Positions 39,653 to 59,552 are shown, counted from the first letter of the stretch. The stretch is 64,000 nt of DNA from Akkermansia muciniphila (GCA_945883495.1 CAMCXS010000028.1:1-64000), one strand, 5' to 3'. Numbers and translations: made by a program. The notes: generated by a model from the sequence alone, not told the origin.

Positions 39653-39706
39653 CCGAGGCTCGGTTCCGGCTAGGTGATCCTCCCCACCACTTACGTCTTG
39701 CAGCTG

Positions 39707-42700: not shown

Positions 42701-45700
42701 GATCGGTGGTCATCCACGATGTTCAGCGGCATCGCGGCGAGCAAGGTCGCGGCCGGCCGGGACTTTTCGCTGGCGGTCCGTCCCACTGGCACCATCTATG
42801 GCCTTTCCCAGTACTCAAACGTAGAGGATGGCGTGGACGTGGCCGCCGGGACGGAATACGCCGTGGTTTTGCGGGCTTCGGGAGCCGTGCATTTGCATGC
42901 GCGAACGTCTTATCCGCAGGGCTACGTTGAGATGCCCAGCAACCTGAGCGGTGTCGCTGGCATTGCGATGGGCCTCCGGCACACGGTGGCGGTGAAGGAA
43001 GATGGGACGCTCGTGCTTTGGGGCAGCAATGACGAGGGTCAGTTGACCGCGCCGGAAGGCCTGAACAGCGTGTTTGCGGTGGCGGCGGCGGGGACACACT
43101 CGTTGGCCTTGAAGACGGATGGCACGGTGGTGGCCTGGGGAACCAATGCCGACGGCGCGACCACGGTGCCCGACGGCCTGAGCGGTGTCATTGCCATTCG
43201 CACCGGAATGCGTTCCACGGCTGCGTTGCGGGAAGACGGCACGGTCGTGACTTGGGGAAGTGCCGCGGCGGCACTTCCCTGGAGCATCGGCGGAGTCTTG
43301 GACTCGCTGACGTATCGCTCCCCATCGCTGAGATTGCCATCGACGGCTCCTTCGTCTCTCGATGGCGTGACTCAGCAGTCGGCCGGTGCAGACCATGAAC
43401 TCGCCATCACCCGGGCTTGGCCTGCAATCGACTTCGGCACGGTGAACGCGAACAGCACGACGCCGGAACGGAGCTTCACCTTGCGCAACACAGGGACGGC
43501 CGCGCTGCACAACTTGGCGGCGACGATCACGGGCCCCGGGGCGGCTCAATTCCGGATCCTCGGCAGCCCGCTGCCGGCTTCGTTGGCGCCAGGGGAAAGT
43601 GCGGGCGTTGTGGTGCAGTTTGAGCCCACGGGCACAGGGGCGCGCACGGCTAGATTGCGGATCGTCAGCAATGACTTGGACGAGAGCCCGTATGAAGTGA
43701 TTCTCAACGGCGCGGCGACCTTGCCGGAAATTGAGGTGACCTCGCCCGCCTCCTTGGCGACTGGAACCACTGTGTCTTTGGGCTTCCAAGTGATCCGGAC
43801 AGAAGCGACGCGAACGCTCACCCTGCGCAACACCGGCAACGGGAGTCTGGAGGGCGTCTCGCTGGAGGTTTTCGGGGAGCATGCTTCCGAGTTTCGCGTC
43901 AGTGAGCTTCCCGGCAGTTCACTGGCTCCGGGTCAGAGCCGATCCTTCACCGTGACCTTTGCCCCGCTGGCGGCAGGGCCGCGTTCCGCCACACTCCGGA
44001 TCGCGAACAACGACGCCGACGAGAGTCCCTTCGAGCTGGGACTCACGGGGCAGGCGAGTGCCCTGGACGTTTCCGGGGCGGGGGGCGGATGGTTGGCCCG
44101 ACCTTCACAGGCCATCCCGCTGGGGGCGGTGCACACAGGTTCATCCCTGGAGCGGACATTCACTATCCGGAATCTCTCTGAACTACCCGTCACGGGATTG
44201 CGAGTGGTCATCGACGGGGCGGATGCAAGTTCGTTTGCCGTGACTCCAGCGTTTCCTGAACCTCTTCCGGCGGGGGAGAGCTTCAGCTTCACGGTGCGGT
44301 TCCTCGCTTCGTTGGGAGAGCAGCGTTCCGGAACCGTAAGAATCTTGAGCGATGCCGGCGAGGAGATGGTGTTGGCGTTTTCGGTCTCGGTGCAAGCACC
44401 CGAGCTGGATCTGCGGACCCCGGGTGGAACTCCCGCGGTGGGGAAACATGTGTTCGCATGGGGGAACAACAGCTTTGGCCAAATCAGCGTTCCGTCTGGG
44501 CTGGGCGAAGTCAAAGCGGTCGCCGCTGGCACCTTCCACACGGTCGCGCTGAAGGCCAACGGGAGAGTGGTCGCTTGGGGGGCCGACGGGGCCGGGCAAA
44601 CGTGGGTGCCAGTGGGGGCAACTTCCGGGGTGCGGGCTATCTCCGCGGGAGCGGAACACACGGTGGCGTTGAAAGACGATGGAGCCATCTTCTGCTGGGG
44701 CGATGATACGGTGGCCCAGCTGAGTGTTCCCTCAGGTTCCCATGATGCCACCGCGGTTTCGGCCGGGGCGCTCCACACCATCGCTCTGCGAAGGAACGGG
44801 GAGGTTGTCGCTTGGGGCGACAACCAGTTTGGACAGCTGAATTCTCCTGGCGGATTGAATGATGTGGTGGCGATTGCGGCGGGCGGGTTTCACGCACTGG
44901 CGCTGAAGTCGGATGGGAGCCTGGTGACCTGGGGCACCGCTCGTTACGGGTTGAGGAGGATTCCCGCCAGTGCCACAAACCCCCTCGCCATATCGGCGGG
45001 CTTAGCGCACTCCGTGGTGGTTCGGCCGGATGGGCGAGTGGTGGCTTGGGGCAACAACGAGGAGGGGCAACGCAACGTGCCGGGAGGATTAACCGGTGTC
45101 CGTGATGTTGCCGCTGGGCTCGCCCACACTGTGGCGATTCGAAATGACGGCAAGCTGGTCTCCTGGGGGAATAATGAGTTCCGGCAGCGGTCCACTCCCG
45201 TCGGGCTGCATTCGGTCACCGCCGTCGCCGCTGGGGGATTGCACACGGTGGCGATCGGAGAATGGGGCTTCGGCATTTCCCAGCTCGGGGTTGCCAAGGA
45301 TGTCTCCTGGCGGATCCACAACACGGGGACTCTCCCCTTGGCCATTTCCGAAATCAAAATCGAGGGCGCCGATGCGGATCAGTTCTCCTTCGTGGGAGCA
45401 GTTCCTCGTTCCGTGGCGGTCAATGGCAGCGCGGCGTCGCTGACGATTCGTTTCCGGCCGGTTCGCTATGGTCCCGTGGATGCGCGTCTCAAGATCACCA
45501 GCAATGATCCAAGCGCGGCGTCCACGTCTCTCGAACTGCCCGCCACGGTGGTTCGGACTGCCGCCAAACTGGGCACGGCCGGGAGCGCCTTTACCTTCAG
45601 CCCACTCACCGTTGAGAAAAGCACTGGTTTGGTGACCCAGCGGCTGGTCTTTGCGAACCGCACCAAGGCGCCTCTTCATGGGCTCCGGCTGGTTCTTTCG

Positions 45701-46159
45701 AGCGTGGCTCAAGGCGTGACCGTGAACAGCAGCAGCGCCGGAGAGCTGCCCGGCTCGGTTGAGGTCATTTACTCGCGGCCGATTCCTGCTGGGGGGACCG
45801 CTGCCTTCTTCTTAACCTATGTGGATCCGAAACGCCAAACCAGCGCTGGGATTCAACCCGGGATCACTGCGTATGCGCTCACCGAACCGGAACCGCAGCC
45901 GGAACCCGTCGCTGGAACCGAAGTGCCCCTCAGCAGTGTCGCGGACTCCCCAAGCGGCCCGGTGCTGCGATGGGCCACCCAGGCCGGGGCCGCCTATGTG
46001 GTCGAGTATTCCGATGATCGTGGCACCACTTGGTACAGCGCCGTGCATCGCTTGCTCGGAACTGGGAATCTCATGACGTGGATAGATCGTGGTCAGCCAG
46101 AGACCTGGGTACGGCCAGCGAATCGAAGCGTGAGAAACTACCGGGTGAAGCAGCTCTGA
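39707..46159 (+). CDS. Giant secreted RCC1 / HYR / choice-of-anchor protein
   Basis: 2150 residues; signal peptide FRLLAVLLLATVPGSAA. Three clusters of RCC1-like blades (pattern VVAWG...G...P..L..V.AIAAG..H..AL..DG) lie at ~49-312 (seven blades), ~992-1234 (six or seven, more divergent) and ~1581-1854 (seven). Between them are choice-of-anchor D/ASH-type domains (FRPKAVGERKTTLRIASNHP; VRFKP-like text) and HYR/Ig-like domains (ATGPAGAVVDLSSQVTDPGE; FPIGDTVVTARVRDSAG). The C-terminus (VVEYSDDRGTTWYSA, then NYRVKQL) resembles the end domain of many large Verrucomicrobial secreted proteins. I prefer ATG 39707 to GTG 39674. Probably surface-exposed, for adhesion or binding; no enzyme domain is seen. 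Confidence 0.85.
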   Translation: MSALLPRFGFYQAFRLLAVLLLATVPGSAAPQLLVTDSGGLEIKPGDASNVVAWGFSRRGNLDVPSGIIGARAVVAAGDQSVVLMGNGRVVAWGSYGFSSTVTPGASVPANLADVVAVQASPDGTLALQRNGTVTAWGNGAGALQLPPGLKDVTAIALGTSHAVFLTRDGSLVATGKNNHGQSTLPANLTGVIAIAAGGDNSLALKEDGTVVAWGRDSSVPHGLRGVTAIAAGWLHATALRRDGTVSDWWFNRVPPGLNGVIRVAAGYHRTVALKSDGSIVWWGDFLHNTPARVPGATEIATGISHAVALLRDVRDFGNMNAGVTGQPVVLTLRNTGDEPLVIQSVSLTGGQAADFVLSQTGLVKTLAPGAATEVSVRFRPKAVGERKTTLRIASNHPGGPSYDIRLIGMGQNNTPPVVSRRMIAVEATGPAGAVVDLSSQVTDPGEATPSAVTFEPASGSVFPIGDTVVTARVRDSAGLTATGSFTVRVEDTIAPVFLTQPSDIEVNSFNHLGEVVNYPPLTVQDAVGAVVTYSIPSGSFHPIGHKVVTVQAVDQAGNRTSLTFNVYVRGASLSVSQQGQLRVWDGGVLQAATVPGGANLGTTVTSTLTIGNGADWAPLRINGLSLEGPGADHFRLDTDGMLPVVPRFGSTTFRVSFTPPGLGTQQASIRFVTNSTGKETVVLPLSGVGKENTAPTLLIPNSPVIAEATGPDGAVVNFSVSVSDPGEPVVPSLELSHASGSRFPIGETTVTARAVDPDGLEVTQSFVVSVRDRTPPSIAGIDPITKPLEQPEGTAVSFSPGITDAVGVTSVSFSHPSGSVFPLGSTTVTVTARDAAGNEASRSFAVNVVSPKPSLETLEEGGATGVVIGSSPYRLDLGMIGVVGSREQRFRLRNLGPGLISGLRLELNDELRGAYRMEPAAPGNLAAGEDHEFSVICEPSSPGMIKGRLRIFTASATDAQQVVELKGTAWPVPNLTVESPVGTRLARGAGQAVTWGHDRWSSTMFSGIAASKVAAGRDFSLAVRPTGTIYGLSQYSNVEDGVDVAAGTEYAVVLRASGAVHLHARTSYPQGYVEMPSNLSGVAGIAMGLRHTVAVKEDGTLVLWGSNDEGQLTAPEGLNSVFAVAAAGTHSLALKTDGTVVAWGTNADGATTVPDGLSGVIAIRTGMRSTAALREDGTVVTWGSAAAALPWSIGGVLDSLTYRSPSLRLPSTAPSSLDGVTQQSAGADHELAITRAWPAIDFGTVNANSTTPERSFTLRNTGTAALHNLAATITGPGAAQFRILGSPLPASLAPGESAGVVVQFEPTGTGARTARLRIVSNDLDESPYEVILNGAATLPEIEVTSPASLATGTTVSLGFQVIRTEATRTLTLRNTGNGSLEGVSLEVFGEHASEFRVSELPGSSLAPGQSRSFTVTFAPLAAGPRSATLRIANNDADESPFELGLTGQASALDVSGAGGGWLARPSQAIPLGAVHTGSSLERTFTIRNLSELPVTGLRVVIDGADASSFAVTPAFPEPLPAGESFSFTVRFLASLGEQRSGTVRILSDAGEEMVLAFSVSVQAPELDLRTPGGTPAVGKHVFAWGNNSFGQISVPSGLGEVKAVAAGTFHTVALKANGRVVAWGADGAGQTWVPVGATSGVRAISAGAEHTVALKDDGAIFCWGDDTVAQLSVPSGSHDATAVSAGALHTIALRRNGEVVAWGDNQFGQLNSPGGLNDVVAIAAGGFHALALKSDGSLVTWGTARYGLRRIPASATNPLAISAGLAHSVVVRPDGRVVAWGNNEEGQRNVPGGLTGVRDVAAGLAHTVAIRNDGKLVSWGNNEFRQRSTPVGLHSVTAVAAGGLHTVAIGEWGFGISQLGVAKDVSWRIHNTGTLPLAISEIKIEGADADQFSFVGAVPRSVAVNGSAASLTIRFRPVRYGPVDARLKITSNDPSAASTSLELPATVVRTAAKLGTAGSAFTFSPLTVEKSTGLVTQRLVFANRTKAPLHGLRLVLSSVAQGVTVNSSSAGELPGSVEVIYSRPIPAGGTAAFFLTYVDPKRQTSAGIQPGITAYALTEPEPQPEPVAGTEVPLSSVADSPSGPVLRWATQAGAAYVVEYSDDRGTTWYSAVHRLLGTGNLMTWIDRGQPETWVRPANRSVRNYRVKQL

Positions 46160-46255
46160 GCCGGGAGAGCTGACGCAGAGGCAGGGTCACGGATTGGTGA
46201 ATTTTTCTCCATGAAGTAGTTGCCCGGAATTTTAAACAACCTGAAAGGTCGGGGC

Positions 46256-48337
46256 ATGTCTCCTTCTCTGCTTGCGCCGGTTGTTGACCCTCAAGGGGTA
46301 GTCGCCACCGTTCGCGCCGTTTTCGAGCACGCCGGGTTCATGGTGACGGTTCCGGCCGATCGGCCGAAAGGCATTGATCTTCTCGCGTATGCTCCCGGCA
46401 CGGCAGAGCCCTTGGCAGTCCGCTGTGTGACGGACCCGTCGCTTTTGAGCGCGGAGCTGCTGACCGGGATTCTGGAGAACTGCCGGGCGCGAGGCGTGGC
46501 GAGGGTCCAGATCCTCTGTCCGTTGCGTTGTCCTACCGAACTGCACGCAGTAGCGGCGCAAGCGCATGCCGAGCTGGTCGATGGGGAGCAGTTCGCGGCG
46601 GCCTTGAGGACGCTGCCTCCGGCAAACGAAGCGGGGAAGGCCGATGCCGCTGCACCGCTTCCTTCCTTCATGGTTCCGGAGCTCTCCCAGGACCGCATCC
46701 CGCCTCAGTCTCCGCCTCCACTTCCGCTCCCGCTTCCGCCTTCTGCTGCCTTCGCTCCCGCCACTACTCCAGGCCAGCACACTGGGCAAAATCGCCCAGC
46801 CTATCCGGTGCCGAGTCGATGGGGAAGTAGTTGGATCGCCGGCGGGCTTGGGCTGGTGCTACTCATCGCGGCGTGGGGGCTGGCCTCTGTGTTCGTGCCT
46901 GGGAGTGGAAAGCCGGTGCCCGTGGCCAAACCGGCCCAAGAGAACGGCGGCCGAGCTTCGACAGATGCTGGAACTGGCTCTGCCGAGTCAACCGAAATGC
47001 CACAGGCGGCTCCATCTCCGGAAGCTCCTTCGTCAGCTGCGGGAGAACCGATCCAGCCCGTGAGCGGGCTTGAGGTGGATTTTGCCCCCATCCGAATCCC
47101 CGCCGATGCAGCGACCTCGGCATCGGAAGTGAAGCCGGAGTTCGTTCGCGATCTGCGGCGGACGGCGGACCTCGACCGGATTGACGACGCGAAAGTGTCG
47201 GAGTTTGCGACTTTCTTGATTGAGTCTGGAGGACAGTTCGGGCGGGTGGACGTGGAGAGGCTGCGGCCAGCGGCGGAGGAGGTGTTGCGGCAGGCGGAGC
47301 GGTTTCCCATGCTCGCCTATTACGCCGTGCCTTGCGCTAGGGATCAACCAGCCGCGATGGAGGCGCTCTTGCCACTTCTGGAGAAGGCCGGGGATGCGGT
47401 GAAAACCTATCACGGGAGAAGCTTGTGGGCTTATCACACGCGCCGTCGCGAGGATGCCGAGGCGGCGCTCTTGAGTTTGCAATCGATGTTGAGGGAGACC
47501 AACGGGTTGCAAGGGCTCTCTGCCCCAGCGGCGATCAATGCCCTGTTTCATCCATACGCCAAGGGGTTTTGGTCCAGGCATCATGGGGAGATCGCCACGA
47601 TTCTCCAGGACACCGCGGAGGTGGATCTTTGGTTCAAGGAACTCGTGAGGGGAGAGCATTACTTTCTGGCGGCGCGGGAAGTCCGGAGTCGGGCGGCGGG
47701 GGATGCTTCAAGCGTCTATATAAGCCTCTTACGCCAAGCGGATGAGTGCTGTGAGCGATCCTGGACGGCGAAGCCTCATCCGCGAAGTGCGGCTTTGCTC
47801 ATTGCGGTCTGTCAAGACGTCAGCGAGAAGCCCAAGGAGGAGATGCGGATTTGGTTCGATGCCGCGGTGAGCTTGCGTGCGGATTATCATGCTGCCTACC
47901 GGACGTATTTAGAAGGGCTGCAGCCCAGTCACCATGGCAGCGACGCGGAACTCGCCGCCTTTGGGAAAGCTTGCCTGAATACTGGCCGATTCGATCTCGG
48001 CGTGCCCGATCACCTTCTTGAAGCCCACCGCTTGCGGGCGAAAGCTCGCGGGGCGGTCCATTGGGGGAGCCTAGGTCAGGAGGAGATTTCCGACCTTGAG
48101 GCATTGTTTCGGGGCTTCGAGGTCTCAGAGCGCGACGCCAGCAGCCGCGCATGGGATCGCTCGATCGCGGCGGCGGTATGGTTTGCCGCGGGTCAGGAAG
48201 AAAAGCTCGTGGACAGTCTTCGGCTCTTGAATTTTGAAGTGGATCCCGGTGCGCTTCAATGGATTGGGATGCCCCAGCAGGAGTTTGCGGGCGCTGTCGC
48301 GAAAGTTTTGGCCAAAGGCGAGCGGGCGAGCCTGTGA
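46256..48337 (+). CDS. Membrane protein with DUF4034-like C-terminal domain
   Basis: 693 residues from the ATG at 46256, which has a GAAAGG motif upstream. Residues ~1-120 are a compact domain (FEHAGFMVTVPADRPKGIDL, LAVRCVTD) that faintly recalls Mrr-type PD-(D/E)XK folds. A Pro/Ala-rich linker (~145-190) leads to one membrane helix (WIAGGLGLVLLIAAWGLASV, ~198-217), then another linker. The C-terminal ~400 residues are helical. The block WFDAAVSLRADYHAAYRTYL with SDAELAAFGKACLNTGRFDL resembles DUF4034 proteins of Planctomycetes and Verrucomicrobia. Function unknown. It starts 96 bp after the giant RCC1 gene and ends at a poly-G tract. Confidence 0.65.
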   Translation: MSPSLLAPVVDPQGVVATVRAVFEHAGFMVTVPADRPKGIDLLAYAPGTAEPLAVRCVTDPSLLSAELLTGILENCRARGVARVQILCPLRCPTELHAVAAQAHAELVDGEQFAAALRTLPPANEAGKADAAAPLPSFMVPELSQDRIPPQSPPPLPLPLPPSAAFAPATTPGQHTGQNRPAYPVPSRWGSSWIAGGLGLVLLIAAWGLASVFVPGSGKPVPVAKPAQENGGRASTDAGTGSAESTEMPQAAPSPEAPSSAAGEPIQPVSGLEVDFAPIRIPADAATSASEVKPEFVRDLRRTADLDRIDDAKVSEFATFLIESGGQFGRVDVERLRPAAEEVLRQAERFPMLAYYAVPCARDQPAAMEALLPLLEKAGDAVKTYHGRSLWAYHTRRREDAEAALLSLQSMLRETNGLQGLSAPAAINALFHPYAKGFWSRHHGEIATILQDTAEVDLWFKELVRGEHYFLAAREVRSRAAGDASSVYISLLRQADECCERSWTAKPHPRSAALLIAVCQDVSEKPKEEMRIWFDAAVSLRADYHAAYRTYLEGLQPSHHGSDAELAAFGKACLNTGRFDLGVPDHLLEAHRLRAKARGAVHWGSLGQEEISDLEALFRGFEVSERDASSRAWDRSIAAAVWFAAGQEEKLVDSLRLLNFEVDPGALQWIGMPQQEFAGAVAKVLAKGERASL

Positions 48338-48516: not shown

Positions 48517-49818
48517 TCACTCAGACAGCATGCGGGCTGGTTGACCGGTGGTTTCGAGGACGGAATGCCAGAGCTCGCTGTGTGGGTCCACCTTTCTCCG
48601 GCCTTGGGTGGCTAGCTCGATTGGGAGATGGACAAACGCCCCGTGCCAGCGGCCCACCAGCAATCCCGTCTTGCCCGCCATGGCGGCATGGACAGCGTGC
48701 CGCGCGAGTTGTGAGCAGTAGAAGTTGTCCTGCGCATTCGCCGGCACGCTGCGGATGATATAGCTCGGATCGATGTACTTCAGGTTCACTTCGGTGCGGC
48801 GATCTTTAAAAAAGGCGCTGATCCGGTCCTTAAGGAAGAGGCCGATGTCGCCGTACTTCATATTGCCACTGGCGTCGGTCTCCGCTCCTGTTCTCATCAG
48901 GTCTTGGCCAGCGCCCTCCGCCAGGACGATCACCGCATTCTTCTTCTTTGCGAGCCGGTAGCGAAGGGCTTCGAGAAAGCCGCGTGGGCCCTCAAGTGCG
49001 AACGGAACCTCGGGGATCAAGACGAAATCGACGTTCCCGCCGGCCAACGCGGCGTAGCAGGCGATGAAGCCGGAGTCGCGCCCCATGAGCTTGATAAGGC
49101 CGATCCCGTTTACGGAGCCGACCGATTCAATATAGGCGCACTTCACTGCGGTCACGGCGGCTGAGAAAGCGGTTTCGAACCCGAACGATTTGTCCAGATA
49201 CATAATATCGTTGTCGATGGTCTTGGGGATGCCGACGATGGCTTTCTTTAATCCGCGGCGCTCGCATTCCGCGCTGATGTCCGCCGCGCCGCGCAGCGTG
49301 CCGTCGCCGCCGACCACGAAGAAGATATCCACGCTCATTTCCTCAAGAAGGTCGACCATCTCCTCGATCTTCTGGGGACCACGAGAGGTGCCGAGGATGG
49401 TTCCGCCGAAGTTGTGGATTTGGGCGACGGAGTCTGGGCGTAGGAGCAGAGGGGTGTGGCCGTAGCGGGCGATGAGTCCCTCGTATCCGTAGCGGAAGCC
49501 GTAAACTTTCGTGACGCCGTATCGGTAGTGGAGCTGGGTGACGAGTCCGCGGACGATATCGTTCAGACCTGGGCAAAGACCACCGCAGGTGACGATGGCA
49601 GCGGTGGTCTTTGGCGGATTGAAATAGATCCGCTCCCGGGGGCCAGCGGCTTCGAAACTGAGCTGCGGACCATCGAGAGGAAGGCCGTCCTCCAGGTCGA
49701 GAGTGTGATCGAAGAGGACGCGGTCTTCGTCGGTGCGGAAATTCAGCTCGACCCCGCCGGACTGGCGCAACGGGGAGGCGACTTCACACGGGCCCAGTGA
49801 TTTGATGGCGGTGTCCAT
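48517..49818 (-). CDS. 6-phosphofructokinase, plant/trypanosome-like group
   Basis: 433 residues from the ATG at 49818 (MDTAIKSLGPCEVASPLRQS). Phosphorylates fructose 6-phosphate in glycolysis. The opening TAAIVTCGGLCPGLNDIVRG, then VVGGDGTLRGA (~167-177), PKTIDNDI (~199) and KLMGRDSGFIACYAAL are the family blocks. Gly in GGDGT normally marks ATP as donor; Lys in PKTIDND is usual in PPi enzymes. The combination occurs in the long ATP-dependent PFKs of plants and trypanosomes, so ATP is the likelier donor. It is longer than PfkA (320 residues), with an N-terminal extension of ~80. Divergent from the phosphatase gene (136 bp between starts). Confidence 0.88.
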   Translation of the reverse strand: MDTAIKSLGPCEVASPLRQSGGVELNFRTDEDRVLFDHTLDLEDGLPLDGPQLSFEAAGPRERIYFNPPKTTAAIVTCGGLCPGLNDIVRGLVTQLHYRYGVTKVYGFRYGYEGLIARYGHTPLLLRPDSVAQIHNFGGTILGTSRGPQKIEEMVDLLEEMSVDIFFVVGGDGTLRGAADISAECERRGLKKAIVGIPKTIDNDIMYLDKSFGFETAFSAAVTAVKCAYIESVGSVNGIGLIKLMGRDSGFIACYAALAGGNVDFVLIPEVPFALEGPRGFLEALRYRLAKKKNAVIVLAEGAGQDLMRTGAETDASGNMKYGDIGLFLKDRISAFFKDRRTEVNLKYIDPSYIIRSVPANAQDNFYCSQLARHAVHAAMAGKTGLLVGRWHGAFVHLPIELATQGRRKVDPHSELWHSVLETTGQPARMLSE

Positions 49819-49954
49819 GGCGACGAGGTCGGCGGGATCCGGAAGCAGGTTTGTCACCAGATTCCAAGAAAGTTCGGGTTTTCGGGCTCTGTCGCCGACA
49901 CGCCTGCGCCCGGTAGCGCTTGCGCGCGGGGGATCGCGTTGCAAAGTGGGACCC

Positions 49955-50443
49955 GTGAAGGTCCTTTTCGTTTGCCTCGGAAACATCTGCCGCTCTCCGG
50001 CAGCGGAGGGAGTCATGGCCAAGTTGGTGGCAGACGCTGGGGTGGATGGAGAGTGGGAGATCGATTCCGCAGGGACCATCGGCATCCATGCGGGCGATCC
50101 GGCGGACTCGCGGATGCGGGCGGCAGCTCGGAAGCGAGGGTTCGAATTGACGAGCCGAGCTCGGCAATTCCGCGCGGGGGATCTTGACCAGTTCGATCTT
50201 ATTCTGGCGATGGACAGATCGAACCTCGCGGATATTCGTCGGCTTGCCAAAGAGGCTCCGAAGGCGGAGCTGGCGCTCTTTTGCGATTTCTGCACCCGGC
50301 ATGAGCAGATCGAAGTGCCCGATCCGTACTATGGCGGACCGGAAGGCTTTGAGTTGGTCCTCGATCTGCTTGGAGATGGGTGTTCCGAAATCCTCCGCCT
50401 TTGGCGCGACGAGAAGCGATGGAATCGATCGACGAACGCCTGA
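49955..50443 (+). CDS. Low-molecular-weight protein-tyrosine phosphatase
   Basis: 162 residues from GTG 49955, which places the P-loop at the normal distance: VLFVCLGNICRSPAAEGV with nucleophile Cys 7 and Arg 13 (CX5R). The general-acid loop VPDPYYGGPEGFE (~124-136) is also intact. Cytoplasmic; dephosphorylates tyrosine-phosphorylated proteins, often BY-kinase substrates. The window's BY-kinase-like protein lacks a tyrosine tail and lies 21 kb away. The 3' end overlaps the fructosamine-kinase-family gene by 25 bp, so the two are probably co-translated. Confidence 0.93.
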   Translation: MKVLFVCLGNICRSPAAEGVMAKLVADAGVDGEWEIDSAGTIGIHAGDPADSRMRAAARKRGFELTSRARQFRAGDLDQFDLILAMDRSNLADIRRLAKEAPKAELALFCDFCTRHEQIEVPDPYYGGPEGFELVLDLLGDGCSEILRLWRDEKRWNRSTNA

Positions 50444-51282
50444 TCGCCCGGCTCTTGGAGGAGACGGGGCACGAAGTAGGACCGGCGCGGCGGCGTTCCG
50501 TTTCGGGCGGGTGCATTCATCGCTGCTGGATCTTGGAAGGCCGCTGGGGCGAATGCTTTGTGAAGGCGAATACGGCCAGCCGACTGGAAATGTTTGAAGC
50601 GGAACGCGACGCCTTACGGGAGTTGGCAGCGGCCCAAGCGATCCGGGTGCCCGAACCGTATTTGACCTGCCAGATGGATGGTGAGGCGTTCCTGCTCATG
50701 GAGCGGATCGAGTTTGGCGGAGGTGGCGCGGGAGACCGTCAAGGGCGGGAACTGGCGGCTCTGCACCGGAAGCTGTCCGGGGACGGCCGGTTTGGGTGGG
50801 ATCGGGACAATTTCATCGGCACCACACCGCAACCGAACCGTTGGAGCACGCACTGGGGGGAATTCTTCGCGGAGCATCGCATCGAGCATCAGCTCCGGTT
50901 AAACCGGCAGGCGGGGCACGACTTCCGCGGAGCGCGGCGGTTCGTGGAGCGGGTGGTGGAACTGGTGGGCGATCACTCGCCGGAGGCCTCGCTCTTGCAC
51001 GGGGATCTTTGGGGCGGCAATGCGGGGTTCGATGTCGCGGGCCGGCCGGTGATTTTTGATCCTGCGGCATTTTACGGGGACCGGGAGACGGACTTGGCCT
51101 TCACTCGCCTGTTTGGCGGGTTTGAGGAAGCCTTCTACCGGGGCTACCAAGAGGCATGGCCACTGGCCGATGGGTGGCGCGATCGCCAAGAAATTTACAA
51201 CCTCTACCATGTCCTCAATCACACGTTGCTCTTCGGGGGCGGATATGGACCGCAGGCGCAGCGAATCATGGACCGCTTCTGA
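50419..51282 (+). CDS. Fructosamine kinase family protein
   Basis: 287 residues from the ATG at 50419, which follows a GAGAAG motif. Family motifs: LEMFEAERDALRELAAA, LLHGDLWGGNAGFD (~192, catalytic Asp) and IFDPAAFYGDRETDLAFTRL. Eukaryotic FN3K phosphorylates protein-bound fructosamines and so removes glycation; bacterial members act on ribulosamines or erythrulosamines. It overlaps the LMW phosphatase, which in some bacteria is found with or fused to FN3K-like proteins, and is followed 7 bp later by the giant glycosidase fusion. A deglycation pair (kinase plus phosphatase) is a reasonable inference. Confidence 0.9.
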   Translation: MESIDERLIARLLEETGHEVGPARRRSVSGGCIHRCWILEGRWGECFVKANTASRLEMFEAERDALRELAAAQAIRVPEPYLTCQMDGEAFLLMERIEFGGGGAGDRQGRELAALHRKLSGDGRFGWDRDNFIGTTPQPNRWSTHWGEFFAEHRIEHQLRLNRQAGHDFRGARRFVERVVELVGDHSPEASLLHGDLWGGNAGFDVAGRPVIFDPAAFYGDRETDLAFTRLFGGFEEAFYRGYQEAWPLADGWRDRQEIYNLYHVLNHTLLFGGGYGPQAQRIMDRF

Positions 51283-51289
51283 CGAGACG

Positions 51290-54200
51290 ATGAGAACTTC
51301 CTGGAAATCGTGGGCCATGACGCGGCCGGAACGCGTGGTGACGGAGCCCGACCTGAAGGCTTTTGGCGCTTTTATGGAGCCGGAGTCGTGGAAAGCGATT
51401 GTCTCCGGGGAAGCAAGCCTGGTGATTTCCCGGGACGGGCCGGCGCTGCGGTTCGACTATGATTTCAAAGGGAGCGGCGGCTTCGTGGTGGCGCGCCGGG
51501 AGATGGACATGACCTTGCCGGAGAGTTATGCGATCCAAATGCATTTCAGGGGGATGGGCCCGGCCAACGATTTGGAATGGAAATGGGTGGATCGCCAAGG
51601 CGCGAGTGTCTGGCGGCATGTGCGGACCGTGACGGCCTGGCCGGAGACCTGGAGTCCGTTGGTCATTCGCGGCAGTGAAATTGGGTATGCCTGGGGCCCA
51701 GCGGGCGGGGGCTTGTTGCGCGAAGTCAGCGCGTTGGAGATCGCCATCGTCGCGAAGGACGGCGGCTGTGGATCGATTTGGCTTGGCAAAGTGGAGCTTG
51801 TGGATCGAACGGTTCGCGAAGCCCCGCTGTTCGCGGCCAGCAGCATGTCCCCTGGGCATCCGGCTGCGGCGGCGGGGGAGGCGTTGTCGGAGAATTTCTG
51901 GGAATCGGCGGACGGCGACGAATCTCCGGTTTGGCAGGCGGATTGGCGAGGGGAACGGGATGCCGGTGGTTTGGCGATCCGTTGGGCGAGTCCGTCGGCC
52001 CCGGCGTTTACCATCTCCGAGTCGGCGGATGGGGTGAACTGGGAAACTCTCGCGGCGGAGAAGGCATCGCGCTCCCGGTTTAGCTTGGTCGCGCTGCCGG
52101 GGCCGATTCAGCGTCACTTGCGCTTGCGATTTCAGAGTGGATCGGTGGCGATCGCATCGGTGGAGCTTGTGCCGGTGGAAGCGACGGCTTCGCGGGAGGC
52201 GCGGTTTCATAGTTTGGCGGCCCTGGCGCCGCGAGGATGGCTGCCCCGCTACTGGCTCCGGGAGCAAAGTTATTGGACACCGGTGGCCCCGCCCTGCGGA
52301 AAGCCTCGTGGCCTGATCAACGAGGAGGGGCTCGTCGAGGCCTCGGCCGGTTTTTTCTCGCTGGAGCCGTTTCTCTGGCATCGTGGCCAACTTCTGACCT
52401 GGGCGGACGCGGCCACATCGCAGGCGCAGACGGATGGCTGGATGCCGGTGCCGGTCGTGGTCTGGGAGTGCGGATGCTGGCGACTGACGATTATGGCGGG
52501 CGCAACCGAGCAAGGTTTTGTGGTGCGATACCGGTTGGAGAACCGGTCCGAAAGCCCGGAGGGGGTGCGTTTTTTCTTGGGCATGCGGCCGCATCAGGCG
52601 ACGCCGCCGTGGCAGGCTTTCCGCGGGTTTGGGGGCCTCGGGAGATTGGAGGAACTCAGGGCGGATGCGATTCGGCTGGAACCGGCGGCTAGTGGATTTG
52701 GGGTGTTGAGCGAAGCGGAGATGCTGTTGCCCGAGGTGTTGGCGACGGGGCAGCTTCCAGCGGCGGCATCGATAGAGGATCCGGCTGGGTTGGTGGCGGG
52801 AGCGTATGCCTGGGACTGGGAATTCGCTCCCGGGGAAGCCAAAGAGGTCTGGGCACGCACTGCGGAAAGGATCCGGCTTGAGGATGCTGTGGCACTGTGG
52901 CGTGAGATCCCTGCGCAGGGTTGGCGGATCGAAGGTGGGAATGCGGAAACGGCGGATTTGGCCTTGACGCTGCGGGCGGCGACGGCCCACGTGCTGGTGA
53001 ACCGGGAGGGTCCGGCGCTGCATCCGGGACCGCGCCGGTATGATCGCTGCTGGATCCGGGATGGGGCGGGGATGGCAAGGGCTCTGTTGCAATCCGGGAA
53101 TCGCGAACCGGTGCGAGCGCTGCTGGAGTGGTATGCTCCGTACGTTCGGGAAGACGGTTTCGTGCCATGTTTGGTGGACAGCCAGGGGCCGGACTGGCTA
53201 CCGGAGCATGACAGCCAAGGGCAGTTCGTCCACATCGTGGCGGAATATCTGCGTTACGGCGGGGAGCGAAGCGTCGGGGAAGCGCTTTGGCCAGTGGTCG
53301 TGAAGACAATCGATTGCCTGAAAACGCTGCGGGAGAAGCGGATGACGCCGGAGTATCGAGCCGGAATTCCGCCTCACCGCTTCGGTTTGCTTCCCGAGTC
53401 CGCGAGCCACGAAGGGTACTTGGCCCATCCGGTGCATTCGTATTGGGATGACTTTTGGGCTTTGCGTGGTTTGCAGGATGCCGTGTGGCTGGCCTCGGAA
53501 TTGGGCCAAGCGCAGCAGGAGGACGCATGGCGGGCGTTAAGCGATGATTTTGGGGAGACGCTGGCGGCGTCCCTGCAAGGTTTGATTCGGGATCGGGGCT
53601 TGGAATTCGTCCCTGGATCGGTGGAGTGGGCGGATTTCGATCCATCCGCGACGGCGAACGGGGTGACGTTGCTGGAGGAGATTCCAGGAGTTTCCAAGGA
53701 ACTTTTGGACCGGAGTTACGTCCGGTATCTGGAGCGTTTTCGTGGCCGGATCGATGGAACGGTGCCGTGGGACAACTACTCCGCCTACGAAATCCGGATC
53801 GCTGGAGCCTTACTGGTCCTGGGATGGCGCAAGGAAGCGCTGGAAGCCTTGCGCTTTTTCCTGAGCGACCGGCGGCCGGTGGCGTGGAACCAGTGGCCGG
53901 AGATCTCCTGGCGAAACCTGCGTTCGCCAGGACATTTGGGCGATGTGCCGCACACCTGGATCGCGGCGGAGTTCATCACCGCGGCGCGATCGATGTTCGT
54001 GGTGGAACGGCATCGGGACGATACCCTGGTGATCGGTGCCGGGATGCCGAGTGAGTGGTGGACGGGAGCCGAGGGGCTTACAATTCGGGACTGGCCGGTC
54101 GAAGGTGGGCGCATGACCTGTTCGTTGCGATTGACGGCTCTGGATCAGGCGGAGTGGCGGGTCGAGGGCGACCTTCGGGTACCCTGGGGCGGGATTGTGC

Positions 54201-57200
54201 TGGCGGCTGAATTACCGGGCGAGCTGGTCGCGTGGAGCGTGGACGGGAAGCCGCAGCCACTGCCGAAAACGCGTTTGCCGGTGATTTCACATGCGCCGGC
54301 GATGATCCAATTGGAGTTTGGCAGCGCCACCATGAGGAGAGAGTATCATCTCAGCCGGGATCCGTATGAAATCTTAATCACGCCGCACGGCACCGGGCAG
54401 TCGAGGCTTGGACCGCTGGTGCTGAACCGCTGGGACGGGGATCGGCTGCTCGACGAACAGGGATTCTTCCTGTTCCTCCGGGACGCGAGCGCTGGGGCGG
54501 CTTGGAGCGCGACGCCGAAGCCTTGCCTGAGAAAAGGAGTGACGCATGAAGGGAGTTCGGTCGCGGGCCGGGTGCGTTGGGAATCGCGATTTGAGGAGAT
54601 TGGCACGCGTTTGGAAGTGGGTTGTTCAGGGGATGGATGCGGTGAGGTGCGGCGATTGGAGGTTACGAACCGGTCCAAGGAAGAGCGAATCATTGAGGTG
54701 ACGAGTTTCCTGGAAGTGGTGTTGCATCATCGGGATGCCGACGCGAATCATCCGGCGTTTCAAAAGCTCTTCGTGCAGACGGAGCGGGATCCGGACACGC
54801 CGGCGCTTCTGGCGCATCGTCGTCCGCGAGGCAACGATGAGTCGTGGCCGTGGATGGTGCATCGGCTAGACGGGACGCCGGTGACCCAGTGGGAAACGAA
54901 TCGGTTGCGTTTTCTCGGCCGGGGACGCGATGCGGCGTGTCCGGCGGCGATGGAAGCGGGGGCAAAGCTTTCCAATGAAACGGGCAATGTCCTCGACGCC
55001 TGTTTCAGTCTGCGCACGGAGCTGGTATTGCAGCCTGGAGAGAGCCGGGTGCTCACGTTCTCACTCGGAATGCTGCCAACGCGGGAGGCGGCGTTGGCTT
55101 GGCGCGGCGAGTTGCCTGTTTTGGCCGAAGCGGGGACACCGATGGTGATTTCTCCGGTGGTGGCGCCGTCGTCGCGTCCCAGGGAAGCCGAAGTGCCGGA
55201 AGCGTATGCCGGGTCGTTGCGGATGTTTAGCGGATACGGTGGGTTTGCCGCCGATGGCACGGAATATGTGATCCGCCTGCCGTGGGAGAATGGCGGGCCG
55301 CGTCGCACGCCGATGCCGTGGTGCAATTGTGTCGCGAACCAGCGAATCGGAATGCTGATCTCCGAAAGCGGTGCCGCCTGCACTTGGACGCGCAATAGCC
55401 AAGCGAACCGGATCACGCCGTGGTCGAATGACGCGGTGACGGACCCGGCGGGAGAAGCCTTTTATCTAAGGGCGCAGGATACCGGGGAATATTGGTCGCC
55501 GCTCCCGGGGCCGGCGCCGGTGCCCGCCGCCTATGAGGTGCGTCACGGCTGGGGATATTCCACGTTCCGTTCCGCGTGGGATCACTTGGAGAGCGAGCTG
55601 GAGTTCTTTGTGCCGGTGGCGGATGCGGTGCGCGTGGTGCGCTGGCGGCTTACCAACCAGGCGGACAGCTCGCGGAGGTTTGCGTTGTTCGGGTTCCATC
55701 GTTTGGTATTGGGGACCTTGCCGCCTGAACCGGGCACGATCCGAGTGAAGGCGGAAGCGAAACTAGCGGCACTTGTTGCCAACTATGCGGAATCGAGTCC
55801 CTTTCGCGGTCCGTGCGTTTTCGCCTCGCTAGCGGTCGATGGGGAATCGCCAGCTGGTTGGTCGTTCACGACGGACCGGGCGGCATTTTTGGGGGTCGAT
55901 GGCGGCGGGATGCGTCAACCGATGGCGCTGCGCTCCGGGGGGCCGTTGGGCGGAGAGTCAGGTGCTGGGCTGGATGCTTGTTTCGCCCAACGGATCGAGT
56001 TGGAGATCGCTTCGGGCCAAACCGTCGAAGTGGTCTTCCTCCTTGGGGAATGTGATGATGCGGGGGCACTGGAATCGGTGATCGCCCAATTCCGGCGGCC
56101 GGGCGCGGCGGAGACTATGCTGAGCGAGGTGAAGACGGTTTGGCAAACCACCTTGGGTGGGATTCAGGTCGAGACGCCGATGCCTGGACTGGACCTCATG
56201 GTAAATGGATGGTTGTCGTATCAAGCTATCGTCTCCCGGCTCATCGCCCGGACGGCGTTTTATCAGTCTAGCGGCGCCTTCGGTTTCCGTGATCAATTGC
56301 AAGATACTCACGGGTTGGCGTTGCTCTGGCCGGAGCTGACACGGGAACAGATATTGCGCCACGCGCGCCAGCAGTTTAGTGAAGGAGACGTGATGCACTG
56401 GTGGCATCCGCAACCGATCGGGCGGGGCATGCGGACGCGATTTTCGGATGATTTGCTCTGGCTGCCCTATGTCGCCGCTTCTTATGTGAACCAGACGGGC
56501 GATGAGTCGATCTGGGACGAGCGTGTCCCGTATCTGCAAGGCCCGCCGCTGGCGGAAGGGCAAGACGAAGCCTATCTGGAGTCGATCGAGAGTGAGGAGA
56601 CCGGCACCGTCTATGATCATTGTTGCCGGGCGATTGATCGTTCGTTGAAGACTGGCTCACATGGCTTGCCGCTGATGGGCACAGGGGATTGGAACGATGG
56701 GATGAATCGTGTAGGACGCTTGGGGAAGGGCGAAAGCGTTTGGATGGCGTTCTTTCTTGGAGAAGTGCTCCAGCTGATGAAGCCTTGGTGCGAGATGCGG
56801 AGTGATAGCGATCGCGTCACTCGTTACGGCGTCCACATGAAGGCTTTGATCGAAGCCGTGGAGAAGGAGGCTTGGGACGGGGAATGGTATCGTCGCGCTT
56901 ATTATGATAGCGGAACTCCTCTGGGTACCGCCAGCGCCGGGGAATGCCAGATCGACAACTTGGCGCAGTCCTGGGCCGTGATTTCCAGAATGGCGGATTC
57001 GGCGCGGGCCAAGCAAGCCATGCAATCCGCTTGGGAGAGGCTGGTGGATCGCGAGGCAGGGGTGGTGCGCTTGCTCGCGCCTTCGTTTGCCGAGTGTCCG
57101 GAAGATCCCGGCTACATCAAAGGATACGTGGCCGGGGTGCGGGAGAATGGCGGTCAATATACCCACGCGGCCTGCTGGTTTGCGAAAGCGCTGGCGATGC

Positions 57201-57652
57201 TGGGGCGGAACGAAGATGCGGCCCAAGTTTTGGAATGGCTCACGCCAGTTTGGCACGCGCGGTATCGCGAAGAAGCGGATCGTTACTTGTTGGAGCCTTA
57301 TGTGATCGCCGCGGATATTTATCATGGAGAGCCGCACACGGGACGAGGCGGATGGACCTGGTATACCGGCTCGGCGGCGTGGTTCTACCGCGTGGCTCTA
57401 GAGACGCTACTGGGGCTATCGATTGGTCGTGGGAAGGAATTGGTTTTGCGGCCTCGGGTGCCGGCGAGTTGGCCGGGCTTCAAAGTTCGCTACCGGCATG
57501 GACATCGGGGCACCGTTTATGAAATTCAGGCGAGCCGGGTGGCTACGGGTGTCACTGTGGATGGCCGCGCGGTGGAGTCCTGCGATGATGGTGTGCGAAT
57601 CCCGATCGAAGACGATGGGCGGACTCATGTGGTCATCGTGGGCTTGCCTTGA
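51290..57652 (+). CDS. Giant fusion: binding domains + six-hairpin glycosidase-like domain + GH94 phosphorylase
   Basis: 2120 residues from the ATG at 51290, with no signal peptide. Residues ~20-160 look like a CBM11/CIA30-type sandwich and ~180-300 like a discoidin domain (FTISESADGVNWETLAAE). Residues ~370-960 contain a beta domain and an (alpha/alpha)6 barrel with YDRCWIRDGAGMARALLQSG (~583) and WDDFWALRGLQDAVW. Residues ~1010-2115 are a full GH94 module: ILITPHGTGQSRLGPLVLNR, GAFGFRDQLQDTHGLALLWP, MHWWHPQPIGRGMRTRFSDD, GTGDWNDGMNRVG (catalytic Asp ~1804) and GGQYTHAACWF. GH94 enzymes phosphorolyse beta-glucosides such as cellobiose or beta-1,2-glucan. The GT84 domain of cyclic-glucan synthases is absent. 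It follows the FN3K-like gene by 7 bp. Confidence 0.85.
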   Translation: MRTSWKSWAMTRPERVVTEPDLKAFGAFMEPESWKAIVSGEASLVISRDGPALRFDYDFKGSGGFVVARREMDMTLPESYAIQMHFRGMGPANDLEWKWVDRQGASVWRHVRTVTAWPETWSPLVIRGSEIGYAWGPAGGGLLREVSALEIAIVAKDGGCGSIWLGKVELVDRTVREAPLFAASSMSPGHPAAAAGEALSENFWESADGDESPVWQADWRGERDAGGLAIRWASPSAPAFTISESADGVNWETLAAEKASRSRFSLVALPGPIQRHLRLRFQSGSVAIASVELVPVEATASREARFHSLAALAPRGWLPRYWLREQSYWTPVAPPCGKPRGLINEEGLVEASAGFFSLEPFLWHRGQLLTWADAATSQAQTDGWMPVPVVVWECGCWRLTIMAGATEQGFVVRYRLENRSESPEGVRFFLGMRPHQATPPWQAFRGFGGLGRLEELRADAIRLEPAASGFGVLSEAEMLLPEVLATGQLPAAASIEDPAGLVAGAYAWDWEFAPGEAKEVWARTAERIRLEDAVALWREIPAQGWRIEGGNAETADLALTLRAATAHVLVNREGPALHPGPRRYDRCWIRDGAGMARALLQSGNREPVRALLEWYAPYVREDGFVPCLVDSQGPDWLPEHDSQGQFVHIVAEYLRYGGERSVGEALWPVVVKTIDCLKTLREKRMTPEYRAGIPPHRFGLLPESASHEGYLAHPVHSYWDDFWALRGLQDAVWLASELGQAQQEDAWRALSDDFGETLAASLQGLIRDRGLEFVPGSVEWADFDPSATANGVTLLEEIPGVSKELLDRSYVRYLERFRGRIDGTVPWDNYSAYEIRIAGALLVLGWRKEALEALRFFLSDRRPVAWNQWPEISWRNLRSPGHLGDVPHTWIAAEFITAARSMFVVERHRDDTLVIGAGMPSEWWTGAEGLTIRDWPVEGGRMTCSLRLTALDQAEWRVEGDLRVPWGGIVLAAELPGELVAWSVDGKPQPLPKTRLPVISHAPAMIQLEFGSATMRREYHLSRDPYEILITPHGTGQSRLGPLVLNRWDGDRLLDEQGFFLFLRDASAGAAWSATPKPCLRKGVTHEGSSVAGRVRWESRFEEIGTRLEVGCSGDGCGEVRRLEVTNRSKEERIIEVTSFLEVVLHHRDADANHPAFQKLFVQTERDPDTPALLAHRRPRGNDESWPWMVHRLDGTPVTQWETNRLRFLGRGRDAACPAAMEAGAKLSNETGNVLDACFSLRTELVLQPGESRVLTFSLGMLPTREAALAWRGELPVLAEAGTPMVISPVVAPSSRPREAEVPEAYAGSLRMFSGYGGFAADGTEYVIRLPWENGGPRRTPMPWCNCVANQRIGMLISESGAACTWTRNSQANRITPWSNDAVTDPAGEAFYLRAQDTGEYWSPLPGPAPVPAAYEVRHGWGYSTFRSAWDHLESELEFFVPVADAVRVVRWRLTNQADSSRRFALFGFHRLVLGTLPPEPGTIRVKAEAKLAALVANYAESSPFRGPCVFASLAVDGESPAGWSFTTDRAAFLGVDGGGMRQPMALRSGGPLGGESGAGLDACFAQRIELEIASGQTVEVVFLLGECDDAGALESVIAQFRRPGAAETMLSEVKTVWQTTLGGIQVETPMPGLDLMVNGWLSYQAIVSRLIARTAFYQSSGAFGFRDQLQDTHGLALLWPELTREQILRHARQQFSEGDVMHWWHPQPIGRGMRTRFSDDLLWLPYVAASYVNQTGDESIWDERVPYLQGPPLAEGQDEAYLESIESEETGTVYDHCCRAIDRSLKTGSHGLPLMGTGDWNDGMNRVGRLGKGESVWMAFFLGEVLQLMKPWCEMRSDSDRVTRYGVHMKALIEAVEKEAWDGEWYRRAYYDSGTPLGTASAGECQIDNLAQSWAVISRMADSARAKQAMQSAWERLVDREAGVVRLLAPSFAECPEDPGYIKGYVAGVRENGGQYTHAACWFAKALAMLGRNEDAAQVLEWLTPVWHARYREEADRYLLEPYVIAADIYHGEPHTGRGGWTWYTGSAAWFYRVALETLLGLSIGRGKELVLRPRVPASWPGFKVRYRHGHRGTVYEIQASRVATGVTVDGRAVESCDDGVRIPIEDDGRTHVVIVGLP

Positions 57653-59325
57653 GCAGTCATGCGCCAAGTCGCGTCTGGGAGAATCTGAAGGATGTGGTCG
57701 AAGAGGTTGGGATCTTCTTCTCCGCTACCGAAGCAGAAACAGGTAACGTTGCGTTCCCGGAGCAGGGAGAAGACTTTCTGGAGGTCTTCGATGGTCAGGC
57801 TGGATAGCAGGTGATCAAGAACTACGGTTTGTGCGCCGGAGAGCAACACTCGAGCCATGACTAGCATTTGTTGCGTGCCCAGCGGGAGCTGCTTGTCCCA
57901 ATTGACGACTTCGTGGAGTGCGTTGCTCTCCTCGACGAGTCGTTCCAAACCGAGTCGACGCAAAACTGCAAGCACCTCGTCGTCGCGAATGGTCTCGTCG
58001 TGTCGGCTATGGACTAGCGTATTGCGCAAGGTGCCGATGTGAAGATAAGGGCGCTCGGGAACGAAGGCGACATCTCCCTCGGGCAGGAACACGCGGCCGG
58101 ATCCTTCGGCCCAAATCCCGGCCATGGCGCGGAAGAGGGCGCGCTTCGCGGGATCGCTGGAGCCATCGATGAGAAGCCATTGGCCCTGAGCGAGCCGGAA
58201 ATCCAGTTCCCAGAGAAGGGGCGGCGCTCCTTCTTTGGCCCAAAGGGTGAGCTTCGAGAAGCCCGGGCTTTCGTCCCCGGTCAATTCCACCAGCGAGCCG
58301 TCGCGGGCCGAGGCTTCCTCCATGCCATCGATCAGCTGACCCAACCGGGCGACCACGGCGCTGTAGGCGGAGATCGATTGGAACTGAGTTACGATCAGGG
58401 AAAATGCGCCCATCAGGTGGGCGAAAGCGACGACGGATTGCGTGATCACACCGAACTCCGCCTGTTCATCGATGAAAAGCGGCGCGACGATGAGATACGG
58501 GATGAGCTGGATCATGTAGGCGTAACCGGTCGTGAAGAACGAAAGATTGCGGTTTACGGAGATCATGCGGCGCATGTTCTGAACGAGATCTCGGAGCTTT
58601 TCTCCGAGCGTATGGGATTCCCGTCCTTCGCGCGCCAGGATCGCGATGGAATCGGCGTTCTCGCGCATGTGAAGGAGTTCGGAGCGGAAGTTGGCTTCTT
58701 TGTCGAGTTGCTGGTAGTTCAGGCGGATAAGCGGCTTGCCCATCAAAATGGTCAGCAGCGTTCCGGTGATGGCATAGATCACGGAAATCGCGAATAGGCG
58801 CGGACTGATGGTCCAGAGAACGCCGGAGAAGGAAATCATCGTCACCGTGCCGTTGAGGAAGAGCAGGACGAACGAGAGCGTGGAGGTGGTGAAGGAGCGG
58901 ACATCTTCGGCGATGTTTTGGTCCGGATTGGCCACAAGGCCGAGACGTTCCAGGTGGAAGTACGTCCGGCTCTCGAGGTAATCACCGAGAAACTGGCGGG
59001 TCTGCCACTCGCGCCAGAGCAGGGCAAGGCGCTCTTCGGCGAATCGGTACCAGGCGGCGGTGAAGGTCAACGCGGCAAAGACCCCGAAATAGGTCCAGCC
59101 GAGCGAGATGAACTGGGCGTGTTGCCGTTGTTCGATCGCGGAAACGAAGTCGCGCCCGATGTAGCTGGCGAGAACGTTCAGGGCGTTGAGGCCGACCATG
59201 AGCGCAACGAGGGCGCCGAACAGAAAAATGGCCTTCCAGCGGACGTTGGAAGCGAGGAACGCCCGGACGACACGCCGCAAACGACTGCCGATCGCGTTCT
59301 TTTTCCGCTTGGCGCCGACGGTCAT
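57625..59325 (-). CDS. ABC half-transporter (SbmA/YddA-like) with degraded ATPase
   Basis: 566 residues from the ATG at 59325; a start at 59484 would add 53 unconvincing residues. The membrane domain resembles the ABCD/YddA/SbmA group, with several helices (WKAIFLFGALVALMVGLNAL) and the marker NPDQNIAEDVRSF (133-145). The nucleotide-binding domain is damaged at every motif: Walker A reads GSSDPAKR (388-395; last Gly to Ala, Ser/Thr to Arg), the signature reads LPLGTQQ (480-486), the catalytic Glu of Walker B is His (VVLDH, 501-505), and the H-loop His is missing. The frame is intact, so it may be a retained pseudo-ATPase. It converges with the GH94 fusion, overlapping 28 bp. Confidence 0.8.
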   Translation of the reverse strand: MTVGAKRKKNAIGSRLRRVVRAFLASNVRWKAIFLFGALVALMVGLNALNVLASYIGRDFVSAIEQRQHAQFISLGWTYFGVFAALTFTAAWYRFAEERLALLWREWQTRQFLGDYLESRTYFHLERLGLVANPDQNIAEDVRSFTTSTLSFVLLFLNGTVTMISFSGVLWTISPRLFAISVIYAITGTLLTILMGKPLIRLNYQQLDKEANFRSELLHMRENADSIAILAREGRESHTLGEKLRDLVQNMRRMISVNRNLSFFTTGYAYMIQLIPYLIVAPLFIDEQAEFGVITQSVVAFAHLMGAFSLIVTQFQSISAYSAVVARLGQLIDGMEEASARDGSLVELTGDESPGFSKLTLWAKEGAPPLLWELDFRLAQGQWLLIDGSSDPAKRALFRAMAGIWAEGSGRVFLPEGDVAFVPERPYLHIGTLRNTLVHSRHDETIRDDEVLAVLRRLGLERLVEESNALHEVVNWDKQLPLGTQQMLVMARVLLSGAQTVVLDHLLSSLTIEDLQKVFSLLRERNVTCFCFGSGEEDPNLFDHILQILPDATWRMTAQGKPTMTT

Positions 59326-59552
59326 CGTGCCGATGGCATGGAGCCGGAGAGGGCTGACGTCAAGCGAAGGACGGTGAAAGCAGAGGGTGAGCTGGACCCT
59401 AACAAGCTGCAAAACAGGGCTTGACAGAGCCTTCGCAGAGCGGACAGGTGGGGAATTGACGCTCGTTTCGCGCTGTTCCGTCACTTGACGGAGGGGGCGA
59501 CTCCTCGTAAGGGAATTGTAGTGTTCGTTCGTGCCTAACCCTGATTCACCCT
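59326..59552. promoter_or_regulatory. Divergent intergenic region before the pyrimidine/purine run
   Basis: 227 bp between divergent starts. It holds a perfect TTGACA at 59421-59426 and TTGACG at 59485-59490, each a fair -35 for the plus-strand genes, but neither has a good -10 at 16-18 bp. No riboswitch-like or attenuator structure is evident. Confidence 0.3.

Follow-up and report, generated by a model that had tools for sequence, protein, structure and literature searches.

A predicted glycosidase in one open frame with a cyclic β-1,2-glucan synthase-type GH94 phosphorylase in Akkermansia muciniphila

The 64,000-nucleotide stretch of Akkermansia muciniphila DNA analysed here (GCA_945883495.1, CAMCXS010000028.1:1-64000; the window) carries a single open frame of 2120 codons with no internal stop. 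Its product joins a predicted glycosidase (the N-half) to a GH94 phosphorylase of the type found in cyclic β-1,2-glucan synthase (CGS).

51290 to 57652, plus strand: fusion coding sequence, 2120 residues; predicted N-half glycosidase followed by CGS-type GH94 phosphorylase; alternative start at ATG 51317

Either ATG 51290 or ATG 51317 could serve as the start, and residues 1–21 are of low confidence in our AlphaFold model. A Pfam scan places an F5/8 type C domain at residues 183–285, two GH94 supersandwich stretches (the best at 1341–1586), and the GH94 catalytic domain at 1618–2042. An initial annotation had described a GH94-ending fusion that lacks the glycosyltransferase GT84, and this description holds: no Pfam match to a glycosyltransferase, GT84 included, or to the GH189 cyclase (PF10091) was found anywhere in the 2120 residues. 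Since the same scan recovers Glyco_trans_2_3 and PF10091 in two true CGS of related genomes, the missing GT84 is a negative result with positive controls. Both of these synthases have transmembrane-like segments, whereas the fusion protein has none, and comparison of the N-half with CGS gave no match. As the initial annotation also stated, no signal peptide or hydrophobic N-terminus is found in the N-half by hydrophobicity; the protein is apparently cytosolic.

The C-terminal half contains the following features.

54350 to 55099, plus strand: first GH94-type sandwich, residues 1021–1270; 40% identical to CGS of genomes G027 and G046, homologous to the domain that separates GH189 from GH94 in CGS
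55310 to 56047, plus strand: GH94 supersandwich, residues 1341–1586; Pfam PF06165
56141 to 57415, plus strand: GH94 catalytic barrel, residues 1618–2042; Pfam PF17167, 1.4e-112
56696 to 56698, plus strand: D1803, GH94 catalytic acid in GDWNDG; aligned to RrCGS D2528 (PMC11842490)

PF06165 matches at 1.1e-125, and the best PDB matches of the fusion protein are the cyclic β-1,2-glucan synthases 8rf9 and 8rf0, over residues 1014–1266 and 1303–2085. This half is a CGS-type GH94 (45% identity), with residues 1014–2117 matching the C-terminal half of CGS. The aspartate context of GDWNDG is kept, in line with the initial annotation, and D2528 of RrCGS, on which D1803 falls, is a catalytic residue (PMC11842490). 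When mapped by motif, R1667, D1668, W1801, E1952, Y1957, and H1959 stand at glucose- or phosphate-binding positions of LpSOGP and T2026 stands at the position of S1005, such that all listed subsite −1 and phosphate positions are kept or conservatively replaced (PMC5309861). The same reaction is expected of this half as of β-1,2-oligoglucan phosphorylase (SOGP), although SOGP belongs to a different GH94 subfamily (about 25% identity). In a tree of GH94 domains, the window sequence groups with stand-alone GH94 genes, separate from the CGS of relatives (99/100). A long-branched GH94 protein of about 2000 residues with a membrane N-terminus, from a genome of the same family (L007, G020:C15), also falls within the stand-alone set.

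The N-half was modeled with AlphaFold on 75 orthologues, with a mean predicted local distance difference test score of 92 and a predicted template modeling score of 0.90.

51362 to 51814, plus strand: N-terminal β-sandwich, residues 25–175; probably carbohydrate binding, no Pfam hit, seen in AlphaFold secondary structure and conserved in 75 orthologues
51836 to 52144, plus strand: F5/8 type C (discoidin/CBM32-like) domain, residues 183–285; Pfam 2e-6, family profile against CBM32-type structures 7.6e-12
52247 to 52879, plus strand: β-supersandwich of the N-half glycosidase, residues ~320–530; AlphaFold model and fold matches
52937 to 54004, plus strand: (α/α)6 six-hairpin barrel, residues ~550–905; no Pfam family, AlphaFold model and fold matches
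53060 to 53062, plus strand: D591 in WIRDG, of a GH15-like subsite −1 Arg-Asp pair; invariant in 75/75, aligned with GH15 WLRD
53411 to 53413, plus strand: E708 in SHEGY, candidate general acid; invariant in 75/75, retained by distant homologues that have lost E703
53900 to 53902, plus strand: E871 in WPEISW, candidate general base; invariant in 75/75, in a stretch aligned with the GH15 EE..GNFPQ region

In the model, two β-sandwich binding domains are followed by a supersandwich, the six-hairpin barrel, and a further sandwich at the C-terminal end; this bears out the binding-type sandwiches and second glycosidase-like barrel read from the sequence at the outset. The barrel matches GH15, GH65, GH94, and MmpH at Z 23–29, with MmpH the best of the matches listed (Z 28.8); the 5z3 glycosidase series, which we take to be a GH15 isomaltose glucohydrolase, GH78, and GH116 are further structural matches. 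The GH15-type enzymes (5z3a–e) and MmpH (7qsj) share the (α/α)6 barrel with the N-half at Z of about 28, and their RD motif and base region can be aligned, but identity in the structural alignment is 14–19%. No Pfam family, Glyco_hydro_15 included, was found over the window barrel. Among 47 N-half relatives scanned with Pfam, barrel hits are weak and mostly to GDE_C and GH78, and Glyco_hydro_15 matches weakly in 10 (best 0.0026). NCBIfam gave a match far below threshold, and a PDB sequence search with the barrel gave a weak MmpH match; the GH15 sequence used for comparison had no hit when searched against PDB chains. Profile comparison of the barrel with GH94 gave E 7e-5 at 63% probability. 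A GH189 or GH144 identity was considered and set aside, as the barrel has no PF10091 match and no profile similarity to GH144, the family of CpSGL and XcSGL (comparison profile of two GH144 sequences).

Nine carboxylates (D591, E639, D641, E708, D720, D782, D784, E871, and D885) are invariant in all 75 N-half sequences, and E708, E871, D591, E639, D641, and D720 persist in plasmid homologues at 30–35% identity. Alignment with GH94 by hhalign suggested E703 as the general acid; this residue was rejected because it varies in 15 of the 75 sequences and in distant homologues. We infer that E708 is the acid and E871 the base. Structure prediction of the middle barrel, proposed initially as a check for acid/base carboxylates, confirmed the fold, with the catalytic assignments of these two invariant residues being predicted. 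The N-half represents a widespread family of predicted glycosidases without a name in Pfam. It is probably an inverting six-hairpin enzyme, its family still unnamed, with action at a non-reducing end.

Genome scanning found at least 498 relatives of the N-half, from which 80 loci were fetched, many on short contigs. They come from Verrucomicrobiota, Chromatiaceae, Solimonas, Stagnimonas, Deltaproteobacteria-type lineages, Gemmatimonadota, and Phycisphaerales, and where an annotation was seen it read only "discoidin domain protein." Not one of these 80 N-halves is joined to a phosphorylase; each is encoded by a gene without GH94. A phosphorylase gene nevertheless lies near the N-half gene in 39 of the 80: a CGS-type GH94 without GT84 or GH189 in 23 and, in its place, an SOGP (identified by Pfam and unfused to a hydrolase in the loci seen) in 16. 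In the 42 loci that extend 5 kb to either side of the gene, a phosphorylase occurs within 4 kb in 28, the BacA-like transporter in 27, and either one in 36. GH1 is present in 11 N-half loci. The N-half gene of a Croceibacterium plasmid adjoins a GH144 endo-β-1,2-glucanase with GH3 nearby, that of a Methylosinus plasmid has SOGP and a BacA-like transporter beside it, and that of a Xanthomonas sacchari plasmid (L117, NZ_CP010410.1), which appears broken into pieces, has as neighbours a GH144 gene that is intact and a sugar ABC transporter. The best match of the plasmid GH144 neighbour is 8xul, XCC2207 (XcSGL). Three genomes (G117, G411, and G218) hold N-half relatives in frames of 1550–1677 residues versus the usual 1030, perhaps other fusions.

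The split loci bear directly on how the two halves came to be joined.

54326 to 54338, plus strand: fusion junction GCCACCATGAGGA; orthologous N-halves end at about residue 1014, and codon 1015 is the ATG that began the former phosphorylase gene

In six of these loci (L022, L032, L035, L062, L065, and L072), the stop of the N-half gene overlaps the start of the phosphorylase gene as ATGA. In the window, correspondence with the orthologous N-halves ends at about T1014, an ATG codon comes next, and the bases read ccATGAgg. Because the overlap exists in split relatives and ccATGAgg is kept at the junction, the window protein is, as judged from sequence, the coupled gene pair fused at the ATGA by a net one-base difference. 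A chimeric or frameshifted frame is disfavoured by the lack of an internal stop. An assembly or sequencing indel, with the genome truly holding two overlapping genes like its relatives, retains a minor share of the probability because the fused form is known from one assembly; a single base decides between fused and split, and the relatives' ATGA falls exactly at the junction. On the other side, no homopolymer at the junction is longer than 3, and the frame is open and conserved on both sides. The same biochemistry is compatible with either case.

The neighbour that converges on the fusion gene is a conserved partner of N-half genes.

57625 to 59484, minus strand: SbmA/BacA-like transporter of the ABC_membrane_2 family, both Walker motifs (A and B) degenerate; convergent neighbour of the fusion

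It has the ABC_membrane_2/SbmA_BacA transmembrane region in common with SLiPT and YddA/BclA transporters (SbmA, BacA). With GSSDPAKR at Walker A it has no P-loop, and the same holds for 28 neighbour homologues, nearly all of which also lack the Walker B glutamate; five more distant homologues retain the P-loop. The degenerate attached ATPase domain is thus conserved in 29 sequences of several phyla beside the N-half gene (loci L019–L097), and it is apparently dead. With a motif-less ATPase domain still attached, the window transporter stands between YddA, which has an attached nucleotide-binding domain (NBD), and SbmA, which has none (PMC13316013). It has been speculated that the proton-driven SbmA arose once a YddA-like transmembrane domain separated from its NBD (PMC13316013). 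In one locus (L019:11083-13182), a frame joins only the final ~100 GH94-half residues to the transporter, an arrangement that resembles the leftover of a vanished phosphorylase or an artefact of assembly.

The backbones of osmoregulated periplasmic glucans (OPG) are β-1,2-glucans that may bear β-1,6 branches or one α-1,6 link (PMC10514313). The genome that carries the window has two opgG genes, one adjoined by the single opgH, and is therefore predicted to make OPG; no GH189 or CGS was found in it. Both OpgG proteins carry a signal peptide by hydrophobicity, unlike the N-half. Among 387 genomes surveyed within the phylum, opgG is present in 12 of 12 with a full-length N-half (one in two pieces) versus 77 of the 387 overall. 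Of 50 N-half genomes sampled across phyla, 48 carry opgG; the opgG search of three plasmid records covered the plasmids rather than their chromosomes and is uninformative.

We consider it moderately probable that the fusion protein is a cytosolic two-step enzyme of OPG degradation, in which hydrolysis by the N-half precedes phosphorolysis by GH94. In the periplasm, OpgG/OpgD-type enzymes would cleave the OPG that the genome's own OpgGH makes, and the fragments would be imported, perhaps via the adjacent BacA-like candidate transporter. The N-half would remove glucosyl units held by a linkage that the phosphorylase cannot cleave, either the α-1,6 link of a cyclised glucan or a β-1,6 branch, and the GH94 half would then phosphorolyse β-1,2 links in the degradative direction to give glucose-1-phosphate. 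The GH94 domain acts from the non-reducing end (PMC11842490). Because GH94 is expected to stall at α-1,6 or β-1,6 links, their removal would fall to a glycosidase with a GH15-like subsite, whether fused or encoded alongside, and such a role would explain both the pairing of the N-half with either phosphorylase type and its association with opgG. The initial proposal of hydrolytic trimming and phosphorolysis of one oligosaccharide is thus supported by the recurrent pairing with two β-1,2-glucan phosphorylase types and by the invariant barrel carboxylates, and it is narrowed to β-1,2-glucan or OPG.

Several observations count against this assignment to OPG degradation. At the profile level the barrel resembles GH15 weakly (one comparison, E 0.0022 at 13% probability), the placing of E708 as the acid is putative, and the fold is compatible with an α or a β linkage, as related six-hairpin families act on both. 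The activities of both halves are predicted, and import by the transporter is putative. GH1 was not found in the window's own genome. The enrichment of opgG in the phylum survey (hypergeometric P 1.9e-9) is uncorrected for phylogeny, two N-half genomes (L092 and L098) lack opgG, and so do most of the divergent N-half relatives in the phylum.

The N-half could instead be a β-1,2-glucan hydrolase, either an exo β-1,2-glucosidase or a sophorose-releasing enzyme, rather than one that clears other links. Its gene adjoins GH144 and SOGP in several loci and it has an exo-type RD motif; such an activity, however, would largely duplicate that of the phosphorylase, the N-half has no profile relation to GH144, and the weak sequence signals favour the GDE_C and GH78 families. 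We regard this alternative as unlikely. It is improbable that the pair serves OPG synthesis or chain-length control, with the GH94 half trimming or extending nascent glucan and the N-half adding or editing branches. The GH94 domain of CGS does adjust length during synthesis (PMC11842490), phosphorylases are reversible, and the link to opgG is strong, but there is no glycosyltransferase in the fusion chain or adjoining it, OpgG carries a signal peptide whereas the fusion protein is apparently cytosolic, and SOGP, GH1, GH3, and GH144 neighbours are degradative types. Derivation of the whole protein from a CGS by loss of GT84 is very hard to credit because, although the C-half is CGS-derived, the N-half is unrelated to GT84 or GH189 and exists without GH94 in 80/80 loci, and the GH94 half clusters apart from the relatives' CGS.

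Returning to OPG degradation, a broader version that we put forward tentatively is that the N-half founds a new GH family that clears α-1,6 (or β-1,6) links of OPG for the phosphorylase and that, with the dead-ATPase BacA-like transporter, it may form a cytosolic OPG salvage pathway present in several phyla and fused in the window. The literature searched holds no description of such a pathway or of a route returning the glucan to the cytosol, and no paper on GH94 combined with a discoidin domain. Interest in OPG synthesis stems from the loss of virulence in opgG mutants of many pathogens (PMC10514313). If the proposal is correct, a common gene whose sole annotation is that of a discoidin protein would become a testable enzyme of glucan recovery, and its neighbour would be a test case for the shift from ABC transporter to ATP-independent SbmA-type importer proposed in PMC13316013.

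Upstream of the fusion gene lie the following two genes.

50380 to 51282, plus strand: fructosamine kinase, upstream of the fusion; Pfam PF03881, 9.5e-100
48517 to 50295, minus strand: ATP-dependent 6-phosphofructokinase; NCBIfam NF005301, domain at residues 159–590 of the open reading frame, true start internal

The fructosamine kinase and fusion genes are separated by 7 bp with no terminator-like site inside and are probably on the same transcript. A low molecular weight phosphatase-like gene precedes the kinase (49733–51282 for the two, plus strand), and the three genes could form one transcript; phosphatase and kinase resemble a protein deglycation pair beside a sugar phosphate producer. 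The initial annotation had the sugar phosphate enter glycolysis and pointed to the nearby phosphofructokinase. That gene also occurs near the N-half gene in the Verrucomicrobiaceae loci L023, L025, and L035 but was not found in the other loci, which makes the link weak, and glucose-1-phosphate would need phosphoglucomutase first. Farther upstream, a 705-residue protein (46220–48337, plus strand) of no obvious function has, by eye, a restriction-endonuclease-like N-terminal stretch, a proline-rich linker, and a transmembrane-like segment, and a 2161-residue protein (39674–46159, plus strand) shows, also by eye, repeated RCC1-like, HYR-like, and choice-of-anchor-like segments.

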